Shown here piece after piece: positions 1-61,894 of a stretch of 64,000 nucleotides of DNA. This DNA is from a candidate division TA06 bacterium. Its GTDB lineage: Bacteria; Edwardsbacteria; AC1; EtOH8. Each line of letters starts with the position of its first letter. Position 1 is the first letter of the stretch. The stretch spans positions 1 to 64,000 of the forward strand of contig JACRJI010000015.1 in NCBI GenBank assembly GCA_016235665.1, given 5' to 3'. Position numbers and translations under genes: made by a program. The notes under the pieces are model-generated. The model did no database searches, had not been told where the DNA came from, and saw nothing but the letters and a program-made list of their open reading frames with translations.

Positions 1-619
<619 letters not shown>

Positions 620-2994: not shown

Positions 2995-3708
2995 TTATAA
3001 TTGCCCGGTCAGCCTCAGCCACTGCAGCCGCCAGACCATCCAAACCGCCTCGTAGACGATCTTCTTAGACATCTTGGACTGCCCCACCTTTCGTTCCTCG
3101 AAAATGATGGGAACCTCTGTCACCTTAAAACCTTTGTAATAAGAGTTGAAATGCATTTCAATCTGAAAGGCATACCCGTTGGATTTGATCCGGTCCAGGT
3201 TGACGGCCTCAAGCACTTTCCGCTTGTAACATTTGAAGCCACTGGTCAGGTCACGCACCGGCACTCCGGTCACCACCCGGGCGTAAATGTTGGCAAAATA
3301 TGAGAGCAACAGCCTCTTCAAAGGCCAGTTGACCACGTTGACCCCGTCCAGATAGCGAGAGCCTATCACCAGGTCAAAGTCCCTGATCTTCTCCAGGAAG
3401 ACGGCCAGCGTTTTGGGCGGATGCGAGAAATCAGCGTCCATTTCGCAGATCAGGTCATAACCCTTGGAAAGCGCCCATTTGAAACCGGTGACATAGGCCG
3501 TGCCCAGCCCCATCTTGCCCGGCCGGTGAATGACGTGAACCCTCTGGTCCTTTTGGGATATCTCATCCAAAAGCCTGCCGGTGCCGTCCGGCGAATTATC
3601 GTCTATCACCAGCACCTCGAACACCTGGTTCACCGACTGGATCTGGGAGATGATCTCGGCAATGTTGCCTTTTTCATTATAGGTGGGTATTATCACCAGC
3701 GCCTTCAT
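2995..3708 (-). CDS. polyprenol-phosphate mannosyltransferase-like glycosyltransferase (DPM1 type)
   Basis: 237 residues, the length of the soluble bacterial and archaeal DPM1-like enzymes. N-terminal MKALVIIPTYNEKGNI, VIDDNSPDGTG, the metal motif EMDADFSHPP (about residues 92-101) and LTSGFKCY are hallmarks of dolichol/polyprenol-phosphate mannose synthases. The family moves a sugar from GDP-mannose (or a similar donor) to polyprenyl phosphate at the cytoplasmic face. There are no C-terminal membrane helices. It follows the coiled-coil gene by 52 bp and is the last gene before a terminator. The product would supply a lipid-linked sugar for extracytoplasmic enzymes such as the TMTC-like protein at 15.3-17.0 kb; that link is inference. 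Confidence 0.85.
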   Translation of the reverse strand: MKALVIIPTYNEKGNIAEIISQIQSVNQVFEVLVIDDNSPDGTGRLLDEISQKDQRVHVIHRPGKMGLGTAYVTGFKWALSKGYDLICEMDADFSHPPKTLAVFLEKIRDFDLVIGSRYLDGVNVVNWPLKRLLLSYFANIYARVVTGVPVRDLTSGFKCYKRKVLEAVNLDRIKSNGYAFQIEMHFNSYYKGFKVTEVPIIFEERKVGQSKMSKKIVYEAVWMVWRLQWLRLTGQL

Positions 3709-3760
3709 GGAATGACTCCTAGGATTATGGTTTAAGGTTTCAACAATTGTTCAATAGATA

Positions 3761-6700
3761 TTAAGTGAATAAGCCCGATTTTTTCTCAGCTTGCAGTTCC
3801 AGATCCTCCAGCACCCTCTTTTGATCCTCGATCTTTCTGGTAAGTTCATTCAGCTCCTTGCTGCGGGCCTGATACTCGGCGGCTTCCGCCGACAGTATCT
3901 TTAAGCGTTTTAGGATGACTGACTCCTCCTCGGACTTCTGGCTGACCGATTTTTGTTTTTCCTCCAACTCACGTTCCAGGGATGCTTTCATTTTATCCCA
4001 ATTTTCCTTGAAGGAAGCGCTCTCTTTCTGTTCGTTTTTCAGGCTGATCAACTGCTGATCCAGTTCATCTCTCTGGCGCTGTTTGGCAGTAAGTTCTTCC
4101 TCATTCTGACGCACCATCTCGGTGACATCATCCAACTGCCTGTATTTGTCGTCCAATTGGCTCTGGACGGAAATCAACTGTTGTTTTACCTGTTTTTTGG
4201 CGGTCTCCGTCTCTTGTGCCATCTGTAAAAGCTCATCGTTCTGGTTTTTCTGCCTTTGCTCCATTTCCTGGCGGGCCTGGTCTTTGGCAGCCTCGATCTC
4301 CTGGTTCAGCCTCCTAAGCTCTTCGTTCTGGTCTTTCCGATTTTGCTCCATTTCATGACGGGCCAGTTCGAGTTCCTTATGCACCACTTGCAGATCATTT
4401 TGGGCTTGATCGCGGTTGTTCTTCAGGGTTTCCAGTTCTGCCTGGACTTTGCCGTTCTCTTCTTCCATCCGCCGGCCTTGAGATTGCCTTTCCGTAATTT
4501 GCTCATTCAAGCCGTTCAATTCCCGGTTCTTGCCGTCCACCAACTGGTTCAAATTGGCCAGCTCGGATTCAGCGGTCATGGCGCTCCGGGCCCTTTCCTG
4601 CATCAGCTCCTGATTCTGCTGGTTGACCTCCTCCAATTCCCGGCGGCTTTCTTCCACCTGTTGTCTGGTTTGTGACGCCTGTTGCTGAAGTTCTTTAAGG
4701 CTGGCCAACTGCTGTTCTATCTGGGATTGCTGTTGTTTCTGGAAAGGCACCGCCTCCTTGATCCACTGCTCCACTTCCCGCTTTTGGGCCTGGAGCATTT
4801 CCCGGGCCTGGTTCAGTTCCCGTCCGCTTTGGTTGAGCAGTTTGATCTCATCCTTCAGCCTCTGGCGCTCGTCTTCCAGAGCAGCCACCTCAGCGCTGAG
4901 TTTTTGCTGTTCCCCCGCGGTTTGGCCCAGTTGGGACAGGGAATCGTTAACGCTGGCCTGCAGGGCCTGATATCTGGACTCCAGGGCTGCGTGATCGGCC
5001 TTCTTCTGATTGATCTCATTTTGCAGAGCCGATCGTTCCTCGCCCAGCTTATCATATTCCTCCTGGGACTGGATTAGTGCCTCCTTGGTCCGCTCCAATT
5101 CATTGGTTGCTTTCACTTGATTTTGCTGAGCCTCGGTCAATGAGCGGTTTATCTCCTCCAATTGCTGGATGGAGATATCACGGGAGCCTTCCAGTTGTAG
5201 TTTGTCCTGCTTCAAGGCCTCGAGCTGGACAAAGGCAGATTTGATATCGGCCTGCAGTTTTTGAAGTTTGCCCTCGGCCTCCAGCCTGAAATTCTCCCGC
5301 TGGCTGATCTTAGCCTCAGCCTCCGACAGTTTTTTCCAGGCCTGCTCCAGGCCTGTTTCCATCGATTGTTTCTGCCGGGACATTTCATCGATTTTTTGGG
5401 CTATTGCCAGACCATCGGTTTTCAATCCGTCTATCTTCTGCTGCAAAAGCTGCTGGATATTCTGGCGGTTGGCAGTGCTCTGCTGAAGTTCTTCGATCCC
5501 CTTTTCCAGGCTGGCCACCTGTCGGTTGCGTTCCACCAAAAGACTTTCCGCTCCGGTCAGCTCCTCCTGATTCCGCTGGATGTGCCCCTCTATCTCGGAC
5601 CTGGCCTTGGAAAGGGTCTCCGTCTCATTTTTTAGAAGATACAATATCTGCTGCTGCTGGGACACCTGATTTTGCAACTGTTCCAATTGAACGTTTAAAT
5701 TCTCCTGCTGGCTCCGGCCCTCTTTGATGCTTGCCTCCAGACTCACCGCCTGATCTTTGTCCGATTGCAGGGACTCTTGACTGGCGCGCAGATCCTGGCG
5801 CAAACCCTCCAATACTCCCTCCAGCACCATTGACTGGTGGAGTTTCTCGTCTGTCTCCTTTTGTTTCTGTTCCAACTGGCGCAGGATGTTTTCCAATTCG
5901 CTGTTTTTCCCGATCCGATCCTGTTCCGTCGCTGCTATTTGCTCTTTCAGGTCATTCCTGGCCTGCTCGGTGGCATCTTTTTCCCTGTGCAACGATGCAG
6001 TTTCCGACCGGACAGTATCCAGCTCGGCCTTGGTCTGTTCCAGCTGAGCTATCAATGTGGAGAGGGAATTCTGTTTGGCCGCCAGTTCACCGTCCAATAT
6101 TTCCGACTGGGCCTTATGCTGGCCGATGACAGAGATCACCGATTCCATCTGGGATTTGGCCGACTGGATCTGGTCCAGCAACTGCCCGTGGCGTACCGAT
6201 GATTCTTCGATCTCCCGCTGCAAGGCCAGGCTCTGCTTTTCCAGCCCGCTGACGTCACGGGTCCGGTCCTTCATGGTAGCCAGGATCTGGGTCAGTTCTC
6301 CCTTGAGCTTGGCCTGGTATTGTAAAAGTTCCTTCCGTTCCTTTTTGGAACGGTTCAGTTTTTTAAGGGTGTGGGCGGTTTCCTTGCGTCTTGTTTTTAT
6401 CTCGTCATCCAAAAGCTTTTTCTGGGAAAGCTTCAAAGCCAGGGCTTCGTCTATCGGAAGATCAGGCTCCTTATGGAATATTCTTTTCACCCCCCCCGTT
6501 GCGGCAGCCCATGCGGCAGCGGCGCCTTCAAAGAACCGGGTCAGGATGCTCTCTTTCCCGGAGGAATGATCGTCAAACTCTCCATCCTGCTCCGGCTCCG
6601 GAGCGACTGGAGACGATTCCGGATCGGCTGCAGCAGAAGCAGGCTGATCTTCGATTGAATGCTCCGGCTGGATCTCCTGTTCAGATTGGATTGCCGGTTC

Positions 6701-58089: not shown

Positions 58090-59277
58090 CTATTTTAAAA
58101 TGCTCTTTAATGCCATAAATCGTTCTTTGTAAATTGGATCATGTGAATAATAATCAAAGGCATAATTTACAATAATTGCACAAACGCCCATAATTAAACC
58201 TATCATCATACCCATTATAGTAATGATTGACCGTTTCGGCCAGCTCTTTTTATACGGCGGAGTAGCCCTTTCCAAAAACTGAATCTTAGGCGTATCCTTG
58301 GCTTCCATTATCTTGGCCTGCTCCAACTGCTGGACCAAAAGCCCATATACCTCCTGGTGTATCTTCACATCCCGCATCCGGCGGCCCAGTTCCATCCCTA
58401 TGTCTGGGGCGCTGGCAAAAGGAACAAAAAGGTTCTTGTTCTTGCTTCCCTTCATCAATTCATTCAACTGCTGTTCGGCCTTGCTTATCTGGTTTTCCAA
58501 ACTCATGATCTGGGGGTTTTCGGCCGTGCCGTAGGATTTCATGGCCTCCATCTCAATCCTCTGTCCTACGATCTTGCCCTCCAAGGCCGCCGACATCTCT
58601 ATCACCGCCTTCATTTCATCATTCAACGAAACCGTGCGAAATCGCTTTTGAAAGACATTCAACGAGTCTTCCAGTTTTTTCAACAATGCTTCTTCCTGGT
58701 CCAGCCTTTTCTCTATGAACTCCCTGGCCTTGCGGCCCTGGTTCATGGTCAGACCGGTGTATACCCGGTCCAATGCTGTGCCGTAGCAGTTGGCTATCTC
58801 GGCCGCCTTATTCTTGTCTTTATCTTCCACCGTAATAGTGATGAATCTCTCTTCCCCCACTTTTACGGCGGTGGCCTTGGAAAGTTTTAAACTTACATTG
58901 TACATGGCCTTTTGGGGATCCTTGGCGAAGACCTTATCCTTCTTGTAATGCTCCACCAGACCGCACTCGTCAATGACAATTCCAGCTATGGTACCGCTTT
59001 TAAGCATGTAAGCGAAAACATCAGAAGGAGTGACCATACCCGGCATGAATCCCACCCCGCCGATCTCCGGGTCGCTGGTAAAACTCCCTTTTAGGGCCAG
59101 GCTCATCAAATTCACGCCCTGATTAACCGGCGGCATCAATGTGGCTGTAGCCTTGTATTTTACCGGGATCACCAGGCTTAGCCCGGCCGCAAATACTGTA
59201 AAAGCCAGGGTAATGTAAATGATCTTCCTGCGTTCTTTGACCAACAGGTAAAGCAGATCATAAAAGCTGTTTATCAT
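58090..59277 (-). CDS. wzz: chain-length determinant (Wzz) protein
   Basis: 395 residues. An N-terminal membrane helix (IIYITLAFTVFAAGLSLVIPV) precedes a periplasmic domain with coiled coil (about 170-330, ending in a Pro-rich TPPYKKSWPKRSI). A C-terminal helix completes the Wzz fold. There is no BY-kinase domain. It sets polymer length with Wzy. Base composition changes inside the gene: the last about 50 codons (58090 to about 58240) are AT-rich like the cassette and the rest is GC-rich, which may be a recombination joint. Confidence 0.87.
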   Translation of the reverse strand: MINSFYDLLYLLVKERRKIIYITLAFTVFAAGLSLVIPVKYKATATLMPPVNQGVNLMSLALKGSFTSDPEIGGVGFMPGMVTPSDVFAYMLKSGTIAGIVIDECGLVEHYKKDKVFAKDPQKAMYNVSLKLSKATAVKVGEERFITITVEDKDKNKAAEIANCYGTALDRVYTGLTMNQGRKAREFIEKRLDQEEALLKKLEDSLNVFQKRFRTVSLNDEMKAVIEMSAALEGKIVGQRIEMEAMKSYGTAENPQIMSLENQISKAEQQLNELMKGSKNKNLFVPFASAPDIGMELGRRMRDVKIHQEVYGLLVQQLEQAKIMEAKDTPKIQFLERATPPYKKSWPKRSIITIMGMMIGLIMGVCAIIVNYAFDYYSHDPIYKERFMALKSILK

Positions 59278-59340: not shown

Positions 59341-60255
59341 CTACTTGGTCACCGACCAGACTATGAAGAACATGGTCAGCAGCTGCCCGGTCACCGAGAT
59401 ATAATCCCGCCAGCCCTTGATCTGCATCTCACCCACTATCACCACGTCGCCCGGCTCCACCGGTGTGGATTCCTTGGCGCTCAGTGACCTTCCGCCCCAG
59501 CGGTTGATCTTTATGTTGCTGGTACTGGCCCTGTCCCCGTAGCCTCCGGCCATCCCCAGGTAATAGCTGATGACCGTTCCCGGTTCAAAGACAAAGGTTC
59601 CGCCCTTCTGCACCTGGCCGACCACCGTTACCGTGGTCGGAGCGGTGGGCACTGTCACCACGTCTCCTTCCTTCAGCAGGACATTAACGGCCTGATCGTT
59701 GTCTATCACCAACTTGGTATAACTGATGCTGGCCACTTCCCCGGGCCGGGCGATGTTCTCGATCTTGATGTCCTCCTTGGTGGCCACCGGTGTAAATCCG
59801 CCGGCCATGGTTATCACATCCAAAAGCCTTTCGCCCGGCTTTACCTCGTAGCTGCCGGGTTTCCAGACCTGGCCGGCCACACGCACCGCGTTCTGGACCA
59901 CCGGAACGAAGATGATGTCCCCGTCCTCCACCTTGGGATTCTCCGACTGCTGGTTGAAGGCCAGATAGCTGTAAAGGTCCAGAGTGTCTATGGCCTGGCC
60001 GTGGCGGGTCAGTACTATGGTCCTTAGCGAGCCCTGCTCGCTGGCCCCCCCGGCCATGGCAAAGGCGGTGGAAACCCTCTCATAAGGTGGCACTGCATAA
60101 ATTCCGGGATTCTTTACCTGCCCCAGCACCTGTACCTTGATGACCGGTTTCTCCTTGGCCTCCACCGGCATAACCTGCTGGCCAATGGCCTGGGGAACGC
60201 CGCTTAAAAGCAAAGCCAAAACAAATGCTGCCGCCTTCTGCAATGATCTTCCCAT
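59341..60255 (-). CDS. wza: Wza/SLBB outer-membrane polysaccharide export protein
   Basis: 304 residues. A signal peptide (AAAFVLALLLSGVPQAIG) is followed by three SLBB-like units: KVQVLGQVKNPGIYAVPPYERVSTAFAMAGG, RVAGQVWKPGSYEVKPGERLLDVITMAGG and TVVGQVQKGGTFVFEPGTVISYYLGMAGG. There is no poly_export domain preceding them and the C-terminus ends in a hydrophobic helix (GQLLTMFFIVWSVTK), which differs from E. coli Wza. It forms or supports the export channel. It begins the operon after the structured leader; SD GGAGG is 7 nt upstream of the ATG. Confidence 0.85.
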   Translation of the reverse strand: MGRSLQKAAAFVLALLLSGVPQAIGQQVMPVEAKEKPVIKVQVLGQVKNPGIYAVPPYERVSTAFAMAGGASEQGSLRTIVLTRHGQAIDTLDLYSYLAFNQQSENPKVEDGDIIFVPVVQNAVRVAGQVWKPGSYEVKPGERLLDVITMAGGFTPVATKEDIKIENIARPGEVASISYTKLVIDNDQAVNVLLKEGDVVTVPTAPTTVTVVGQVQKGGTFVFEPGTVISYYLGMAGGYGDRASTSNIKINRWGGRSLSAKESTPVEPGDVVIVGEMQIKGWRDYISVTGQLLTMFFIVWSVTK

Positions 60256-60270
60256 TGATTTCCTCCAAAT

Positions 60271-60306
60271 AAAAATCCGGATGCCCGATATTTTAGGCGT
60301 CCGGAT
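60271..60306 (-). terminator. terminator-like hairpin directly before wza (possible attenuator)
   Basis: On the minus strand TCCGGAT at the left edge pairs with ATCCGGA across a GCC/GGC extended stem (60275-60306), followed by TTTTTATTT and then the wza SD sequence. A promoter lies upstream, so this would stop transcripts before wza unless antitermination occurs. Confidence 0.55.
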
Positions 60307-60354
60307 ATTTAATACCTTACTATTGCCGTTGAAATGTGACTAAGGTATAAAAAC

Positions 60355-60461
60355 AGGGCGCCTGTTTAGTTATAAAGCCAAGGCTAAAAAACAAAACAAC
60401 CAATGGCTGTTTGGCCGTAAATTCTCTGTTTTTTAGAAACCTCAAACTTTAATGGCGCCCT
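60355..60461 (-). promoter_or_regulatory. nested-stem RNA element in the wza leader
   Basis: The 328-bp gap between wza and the dehydrogenase gene holds a promoter and this element. Outer stem AGGGCGCC (60355-60362) and GGCGCCCT (60454-60461) encloses an inner exact 9-bp stem CTAAAAAAC (60384-60392) and GTTTTTTAG (60428-60436) and a small hairpin CCAA/TTGG. On the minus strand the outer stem is followed by GTTTTTATA, so the whole looks like a large terminator-linked regulatory structure. I recognise no known riboswitch class. Confidence 0.5.
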
Positions 60462-60505
60462 AATTTAGCTCCTTGCTGGGTTATTATCGTTTTTTCAGAT
60501 AGCTA

Positions 60506-60534
60506 ATTTTACCTCAAATACTTTGATTTGTCAA
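60506..60534 (-). promoter_or_regulatory. sigma-70 promoter of the wza-wzz polysaccharide operon
   Basis: On the minus strand TTGACA (60529-60534) and TAAAAT (60506-60511) have a 17-bp spacer. Transcription would start near 60499, giving a leader of about 244 nt to the wza ATG that includes the two structured elements. Confidence 0.75.
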
Positions 60535-60583
60535 GACATTAAACCGATGAATTACAAAGGGTAAGCCTTAAAACGACCCGGGT

Positions 60584-61894
60584 TTATTGTTTCCGCCCGA
60601 TCTTGACGATTTTGGGGCTTTTTATTCCCTTGGTGGCATTCCTGGTATCCACCACCAATTTGGAATTCTTTACTATCATCTTCAGGTCATATTCGGAATG
60701 GTTGGTGGTGATCAGGACGCAATCCACCGACCTTAACAGCTTCTGGGTCAATGGAACCGAGGTCAAGGACATCCCATGTTCCGAGAATTTCGGCACCCAG
60801 GGATCGTTGTAGATCAGCGACTTTACCTTGGGCCGCAAAAGCTCTATCACCTTGATGGCCGGGCTGCTGCGGGTGTCGTCGATGTCCTTTTTAAAGGCCA
60901 CTCCCAGCACCAGCACCTTGGACCGGGAGGCCGCCAGCCCGATGTCGGAAAGGGCGCTGATCACCTTGTCCACCACGTGATAGGGCATGTTCTCGTTGGT
61001 CTCGGCCGCCAGCTCTATGAAGTCGGTATGAAAGTCATATTCCTTGGCCTTCCAGGCCAGATAATAGGGATCGATGGGGATGCAGTGGCCGCCCAGACCG
61101 GGGCCGGGATAGAACGGCATGTAGCCGTAGGGCTTGGTGGCTGCGGCGTCCACCACCTCCCAGATGTCCACCCCCTCCATCCGCTCGCACAGGCAGGCCA
61201 GCTCGTTCACCAGGGCTATGTTGACGCTGCGGAAGATGTTCTCCAGCAGCTTGGTCATCTCGGCGGCCGAGGGCGAGGAGACCATCACCACCTGGCTGAT
61301 GATCTGCCGGTAAAGCAGGCCGGCCAGCTCCCCGCATTTTGGGGTCAGGCCCCCCACCACGGTGGGGGTGTTGGCGATGCCGAATTTCTTGTTGCCGGGA
61401 TCGATCCGCTCCGGGGAGAAGGCCAGGTAAAAATCCTTCCCGGCCTTCAAGCCGGTCTTCTCCAGGATCGGCTTGACCACTTTGGTGGTGGTCTCGGGAT
61501 AAGTAGTGCTGATCAGCACCACCAGCATTTCTTTGTGAAGATACCGGGCTATATCCTTAGTAGAGGAAATTATGTAGCTGATGTCGGGGTCCTTGGTGGC
61601 GGTAAACGGGGTGGGGACGCAGATCAACACCGCATCACAGCTTTTAAGCGCCTGGTAATCCCCGGTGGCCTTGAGCTTTTTCGTGCTGACCAGCTTTTTC
61701 AGCAACTGGTCGTCCACGTCGGCGATGTAATTCCTGCCGGAGTTGATGGAGGACACTTTCTTCTGGTCAACGTCAATGCCGATCACGTTAAAGCCCACCC
61801 GGCCAAACTCCACTGCCAGCGGCAGGCCCACGTATCCCAGGCCGATCACGCCCACCGTGGCCTTATGCGCTTCTATCTTGGTCTTCAGGTCCAT
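60584..61894 (-). CDS. UDP-N-acetyl-sugar 6-dehydrogenase (WbpA/WbpO-type)
   Basis: 436 residues. NAD-binding TVGVIGLGYVGLPLAVEFG, the substrate motif GPGLGGHCIPIDPYYLAWKA with the catalytic Cys, and the C-terminal LGVAFKKDIDDTRSSPA place it among UDP-sugar 6-dehydrogenases of the UDP-GlcNAc/ManNAc group. It makes a UDP-uronic acid by two NAD+-linked oxidations. It follows the rmlB-like gene and precedes the wza promoter. Confidence 0.92.
   Translation of the reverse strand: MDLKTKIEAHKATVGVIGLGYVGLPLAVEFGRVGFNVIGIDVDQKKVSSINSGRNYIADVDDQLLKKLVSTKKLKATGDYQALKSCDAVLICVPTPFTATKDPDISYIISSTKDIARYLHKEMLVVLISTTYPETTTKVVKPILEKTGLKAGKDFYLAFSPERIDPGNKKFGIANTPTVVGGLTPKCGELAGLLYRQIISQVVMVSSPSAAEMTKLLENIFRSVNIALVNELACLCERMEGVDIWEVVDAAATKPYGYMPFYPGPGLGGHCIPIDPYYLAWKAKEYDFHTDFIELAAETNENMPYHVVDKVISALSDIGLAASRSKVLVLGVAFKKDIDDTRSSPAIKVIELLRPKVKSLIYNDPWVPKFSEHGMSLTSVPLTQKLLRSVDCVLITTNHSEYDLKMIVKNSKLVVDTRNATKGIKSPKIVKIGRKQ

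Follow-up and report, generated by a model that had tools for sequence, protein, structure and literature searches.

In studied bacteria, NusG-family elongation factors control a number of large glycan operons. In Bacillus, the EAR element of eps operons is a structured cis RNA that exerts antitermination on an exopolysaccharide operon; with this element, as with put RNA, the RNA itself binds polymerase. According to PMC12691694, LoaP, a paralogue of NusG, binds to a small hairpin of the UNCG type, and LoaP-dependent leaders (dfn, mln) carry an RNA hairpin early in the leader of a long operon and then an intrinsic terminator. RfaH acts with ops/JUMPstart, an element in the leader just ahead of polysaccharide genes, as described in PMC6358824 and PMC6775461.

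We analysed the region 60256-60534 of a 64,000-nucleotide stretch of a Candidatus Edwardsbacteria genome (the window). We consider it probable, from sequence and predicted folding, that this region is the 5' leader of a wza-wzz-wzy polysaccharide operon and acts as a transcription attenuator in which a GGCGCCC strand may switch between a hairpin and a terminator arm. Like attenuators and attenuation riboswitches in general, it has a promoter, a structured domain, a proposed strand shared by the base of that domain and an antiterminator, and a terminator before the first gene; unlike them, it matches no Rfam family and, two short motifs aside, lacks a conserved aptamer-like core, and its switch pairing is uneven between genera. 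As in LoaP leaders, a hairpin and an intrinsic terminator are combined in the leader of a long operon (PMC12691694), but the genomes carrying the wza leader have no NusG paralogue and their leaders no UNCG site at one conserved place. The position just ahead of polysaccharide genes is shared with ops/JUMPstart elements (PMC6358824 and PMC6775461), whereas the ops octamer GGCGGTAG and an RfaH-like protein are missing and the likeness to JUMPstart is weak and limited to one genus. With EAR the leader has in common that it is a structured cis RNA on an exopolysaccharide operon; it differs in lacking an Rfam match to any such family. The leader is probably a lineage-restricted, new variant among transcription attenuator leaders. 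Literature listings on attenuated exopolysaccharide leaders, wza attenuation or riboswitches, EAR, LoaP and Edwardsbacteria showed no paper on it.

An earlier note on this DNA had brought up processive antitermination by NusG paralogues (RfaH/ops, LoaP, UpxY). In all 10 genomes of the family sample NusG gave one match per genome (E up to 0.1), and no locus-specific paralogue of the RfaH, LoaP or UpxY type was found; the NusG of the window genome lies, as read from the sequence, between secE-like and rplK-like frames. CsrA was found in 0/10 family genomes, with a detection control positive in 3 of 14 known genomes, and an ANTAR protein likewise in 0/10, with matches in 2 of 11 other genomes and a control positive in 0/14. 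With a single NusG and no detectable CsrA or ANTAR protein, control of the RfaH, LoaP or UpxY type is unsupported. The faint resemblance to JUMPstart without the ops core, also pointed out earlier, held for genus g1 (9 and 5 of 500 shuffles as good) and was lost in the other seven leaders (50 to 322 of 500); the best match to ops in the first 70 nt was 5 or 6 of 8 across nine leaders. UNCG words were scattered in the leaders, with none in G007 and no shared position. In Rfam 15, neither the window leader nor those of eight relatives reached gathering score with any curated family, be it a riboswitch, T-box, EAR or other RNA, in agreement with the former statement that no known riboswitch class fits, and permissive Rfam scans of three of the nine leaders returned unrelated sub-threshold matches only. 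No conserved short ORF with a ribosome site was found among the g1, g2 and g4 leaders: a TTG frame occurs in g1 alone, 5-codon frames occur in g2, and g4 has none.

Anatomy of the leader and its operon

All features of the leader lie on the minus strand, in the order promoter, AAGGAG, long hairpin, T5, linker hairpin, terminator, GGAGG and the ATG of wza at 60255 (Table 1). The sigma-70 promoter read in the earlier note was the sole match of this type when 59400-61300 was scanned, and we infer a transcription start near 60499. Both pairs of the nested 8-bp and 9-bp stem described before proved exact, with a T-run behind them. The two terminator-like stems claimed are both present in the window; only the gene-proximal one, however, is conserved. 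The terminator hairpin with its U-tract (60267-60306) directly abuts the GGAGG of wza and ends 11 bases before the start codon. Within P1 (60394-60418, minus strand), a terminator scan also listed another terminator-like stem, its tail rich in T, and genus g1 may therefore carry additional stop signals.

Table 1. Features of the wza leader and of the first two operon genes in the window
Feature	Position	Strand	Remark
Sigma-70-type promoter TTGACA-17-TAAAAT	60506..60534	-	11/12 consensus matches; 11 or 12 of 12 in 9/9 leaders
Purine-rich AAGGAG between promoter and hairpin	60469..60474	-	similar purine runs in other leaders
Main long hairpin P1	60355..60461	-	long hairpin at same place in 9/9 leaders
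P1 5' lower arm AGGGCGCC	60454..60461	-	exact 8-bp pair with 60355-60362
5'-arm motif RUUAAMGUYDG, window form AUUAAAGUUUG	60443..60453	-	kept in 9/9 leaders
Nested A+T-rich stem within P1	60384..60436	-	exact 9-bp ends (CTAAAAAAC/GTTTTTTAG, 60428-60436 with 60384-60392); specific to genus g1
P1 3' lower arm GGCGCCCT, proposed switch strand	60355..60362	-	exact 8-bp outer stem with AGGGCGCC
T-run (T5) 3' of P1	60349..60353	-	present in two g1 leaders, absent in other seven
Linker hairpin AUACCUUA...UAAGGUAU, 8 bp	60312..60348	-	between P1 and terminator
Intrinsic terminator hairpin AUCCGGACGCC...GGGCAUCCGGAU	60275..60306	-	fold and shuffle test
Terminator 5' arm CGGACGCC, proposed partner of switch strand	60296..60303	-	within terminator hairpin
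Terminator U-tract UUUUAUUU	60267..60274	-	sequence and shuffle test
wza-type polysaccharide export gene, SLBB domains, 304 aa	59341..60255	-	first gene after leader
wzz-type chain-length gene	58090..59277	-	next in operon after wza

The predicted fold of the window leader RNA (-71.0, against a shuffle mean of -50.9; z -4.76) was better than those of all 200 dinucleotide shuffles. Recomputed with an independent script, z was -4.82 in the window and ranged from -2.05 to -5.42 across the nine leaders. By sequence, an intrinsic terminator lies between promoter and first gene in 9/9 leaders; none of 100 shuffles was as good as the terminator in eight of them and 2 of 100 in the remaining one.

Downstream of wza, genes of the wzz, wzy, flippase and glycosyltransferase types follow on the same strand, and upstream of the leader there are genes of the ugd, epimerase/dehydratase and dTDP-sugar-isomerase types. 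The upstream neighbour varies, being ugd-type in the window and in L043, a gene of the FAD-dependent oxidoreductase family in L046 and an 886-aa frame in L044. After wza, a wzz-type gene was seen in the window and in L043; a wzy-type gene occurs farther downstream in the window as well as in L046. Because upstream neighbours vary while wzz and wzy are kept with wza, the leader appears to travel with wza. In L042, an additional frame of about 358 aa (3669-4745) stands between the wza and wzz frames; it is not in L043. At its other end, which is base 1 of the contig, the window carries part of a 16S rRNA gene (1-619, minus strand).

Conservation of the leader in Candidatus Edwardsbacteria

The family sample comprised 10 Candidatus Edwardsbacteria genomes, with leaders from four genera (g1 to g4, the window belonging to g1). 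A wza orthologue was found at E below 1e-120 in nine of them; G001 has none (best E 2.3e-5). The leader architecture stands in front of wza in all nine wza-carrying genomes, with the order promoter, RUUAAMGUYDG, a GCGCC-bearing strand (GGCGCC in seven leaders, AGCGCC in G002 and GGCGCGCC in G006) and CGGRCGYC inside the terminator. Folded singly, each of the nine gave a long hairpin with the motif in its 5' arm and the GCGCC strand (GGCGCGCC in G006) at its 3' base, and then the terminator. Comparison thus shows that in four genera wza is preceded, in constant order, by a fixed promoter, a structured RNA that is conserved, and an intrinsic terminator predicted from sequence.

A pattern of promoter plus motif matched once each in 9/10 family genomes (not G001) and in 0/11 outsiders, and its backwards control in 0/21 genomes. 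A three-part pattern matched in 7/10 family genomes, missing G002 and G006 because each has a variant of one part, and in 2 of 280 others, compared with 14 of 280 for the backwards control. The two outside matches, one between divergent frames and overlapping a start, the other inside the start of a coding frame, were taken as chance because neither precedes a polysaccharide export gene. An early pattern match in G001 was rejected since it is inside a coding frame, and a 22-base nucleotide match in the same genome was also rejected as a leader. Within the limits of the patterns used, these results indicate that the leader is single-copy per genome and tied to wza.

Nucleotide search of the leader against its own genome and 60 relatives recovered, besides itself, G002 alone at 95%; plain BLAST is blind to leader similarity outside genus g1, as sequences of different genera are too diverged. 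A search of phage records gave no match, and a scan of a genome collection gave five family records and two remote ones. Model R1, built from g4, retrieved g4 leaders exclusively, so that homology between genera is judged from position, architecture and short motifs; the g4-model alignment A5 (24 matches) contains chance matches and was not used. In g2, a segment of about 103 bp between the leader terminator and wza is 89% identical and in opposite orientation in G003 (L019 1286-1461) and G006 (L018, minus strand). It is near single-copy (one full copy per genome and one partial 79% copy in G003), contains no sigma-70-type promoter in either orientation, and is possibly an invertible element.

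MAFFT alignments of all nine leaders misplaced the 3' half across genera, and for this reason no nine-sequence covariance model was made; paired changes were read by looking up the partner of each motif base across genera. The R of RUUAAMGUYDG forms A-U in g4 and G-C in g2 and is unpaired in g1 and g3; M forms A-U in g1, g2 and g4 and C-G in g3; Y forms U-A or U-G in g1 and g4 and C-G in g2 and g3; and D forms U-A in g1 and in g4, G-C in g2 and A-U in g3. In the full leader, the upper-arm pairs of g1 have a probability of about 0.5. The four g4 leaders alone showed no pair changed on both sides (RNAalifold), which means that the paired changes derive from comparison between genera. When motif and base were fixed and the rest was shuffled, upper-arm pairings as good arose, per 200 shuffles, 11, 2, 15 and 2 times with a single leader standing for each genus, for a combined Fisher p of 0.00027; this test was run on eight of the nine leaders, with G008 left out. 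The lower pairing (GGCGC with the 5' flank) clearly exceeded flank shuffles in some leaders only, with 1 of 200 as good in the window and 58 and 132 of 200 in g2. The letters of the motif are kept in each structural setting, be it a helix (g2, g4), an internal loop (g1) or a bulge (g3), which favours direct sequence recognition. The reading of the region as a candidate attenuation or antitermination leader, put forward from the window alone, was strengthened by this comparison with relatives: the architecture is conserved in 9/9 leaders, and pairs have changed on both sides between genera.

The proposed switch and competing explanations

GGCGCCC at the base of P1 can pair with GGRCGYC in the 5' arm of the terminator at 7/7 positions in six leaders, at 6/7 in the window and G006, and at 5/7 in G002; genus g1 has an A-C mismatch in this pairing. 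Compared with shuffles, the duplex was matched by at most 15 of 1000 in 8/9 leaders, whereas in G002 (189 of 1000) it was no better than shuffles. Chance complementarity is made easier by the palindrome GGCGCC, which in several leaders is present in both strands, and in 5/9 leaders another upstream stretch pairs more strongly with the terminator arm. For nascent RNA without the 3' arm of the terminator, the antiterminator lay 0 to 0.7 kcal/mol above the best fold in g4, 1.8 in g3, 4.0 to 4.8 in g1 and 7.5 to 10.5 in g2; energies of the mutually exclusive antiterminator are near balance in g3 and g4 and unfavourable in g1 and g2. The full-length RNA favours termination by 2.6 to 18.7 kcal/mol in all nine leaders, and termination is therefore the likely default.

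The conserved long hairpin and the stop signal that follows it probably form an RNA on/off switch. RNA polymerase would start near 60499, and the long hairpin would fold first; by default the terminator would then form and transcription stop ahead of wza. If the base of P1 were opened or prevented from closing, the GGCGCCC on its 3' side could pair with GGRCGYC of the terminator, a step that is moderately supported, and this pairing, enclosing the linker hairpin, would let the polymerase read through. A small ligand or RNA-binding protein would most likely be recognised at RUUAAMGUYDG in the 5' arm. Attenuation as such appears well supported by the anatomy, and the particular GGCGCCC switch is a moderate hypothesis. 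More tentatively, the leader may represent a new class of cis-regulatory RNA, seen so far only in Candidatus Edwardsbacteria, that senses a ligand or protein via the RUUAAMGUYDG arm and turns a polysaccharide export operon on or off by shifting GGCGCCC between hairpin and antiterminator, in bacteria without the NusG-paralogue route.

The hairpin could instead be a loading site for an antitermination factor, or bind polymerase itself, rather than be a competing fold, so that polymerase passes this terminator and perhaps later ones. Such a mechanism would suit the long glycan operon downstream and the sequence recognition suggested by the motif, and LoaP leaders also combine a hairpin with an intrinsic terminator (PMC12691694); yet the family genomes have no NusG paralogue, CsrA or ANTAR protein, the leaders share no placed UNCG site and none matches Rfam, and we regard it as unlikely. 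That the terminator is favoured in all nine folds would equally be expected of an unregulated partial terminator which lowers or insulates wza expression, the hairpin protecting the 5' end. Since the scan of the window detected no terminator in the stretch from ugd to the promoter, the leader terminator could also stop read-through from ugd. A conserved motif and a long hairpin with paired changes, however, exceed what insulation needs, and g4 already has a separate terminator-like hairpin after ugd, seen in the sequence; we think this explanation improbable.

Promoter, structured RNA and terminator also make up a complete unit, which might be an independent small RNA some 210 nt long, in which case wza would be transcribed from another site. 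Downstream of the conserved promoter nothing scored above 8/12 in the nine leaders, which speaks against the downstream transcription start considered in the earlier note; weak promoter-like sites at 8/12 occur further downstream in G007, G008 and G009, but six of the nine leaders have none at 8/12 or above. In addition, the window terminator leaves no room for a promoter between itself and wza, there is no Rfam small-RNA match at gathering score, and the position before wza is kept in 9/9 leaders. A small RNA is accordingly very improbable.

The attenuator leader proposed here has limited reach, since it concerns a single operon in a single family of uncultured bacteria. Its nine sequences provide a compact, testable model built on a single switch strand and a single terminator, and they would give Rfam a regulatory RNA that it now lacks. 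The leader points to another solution for the control of a glycan operon in a deep lineage that has just one NusG.
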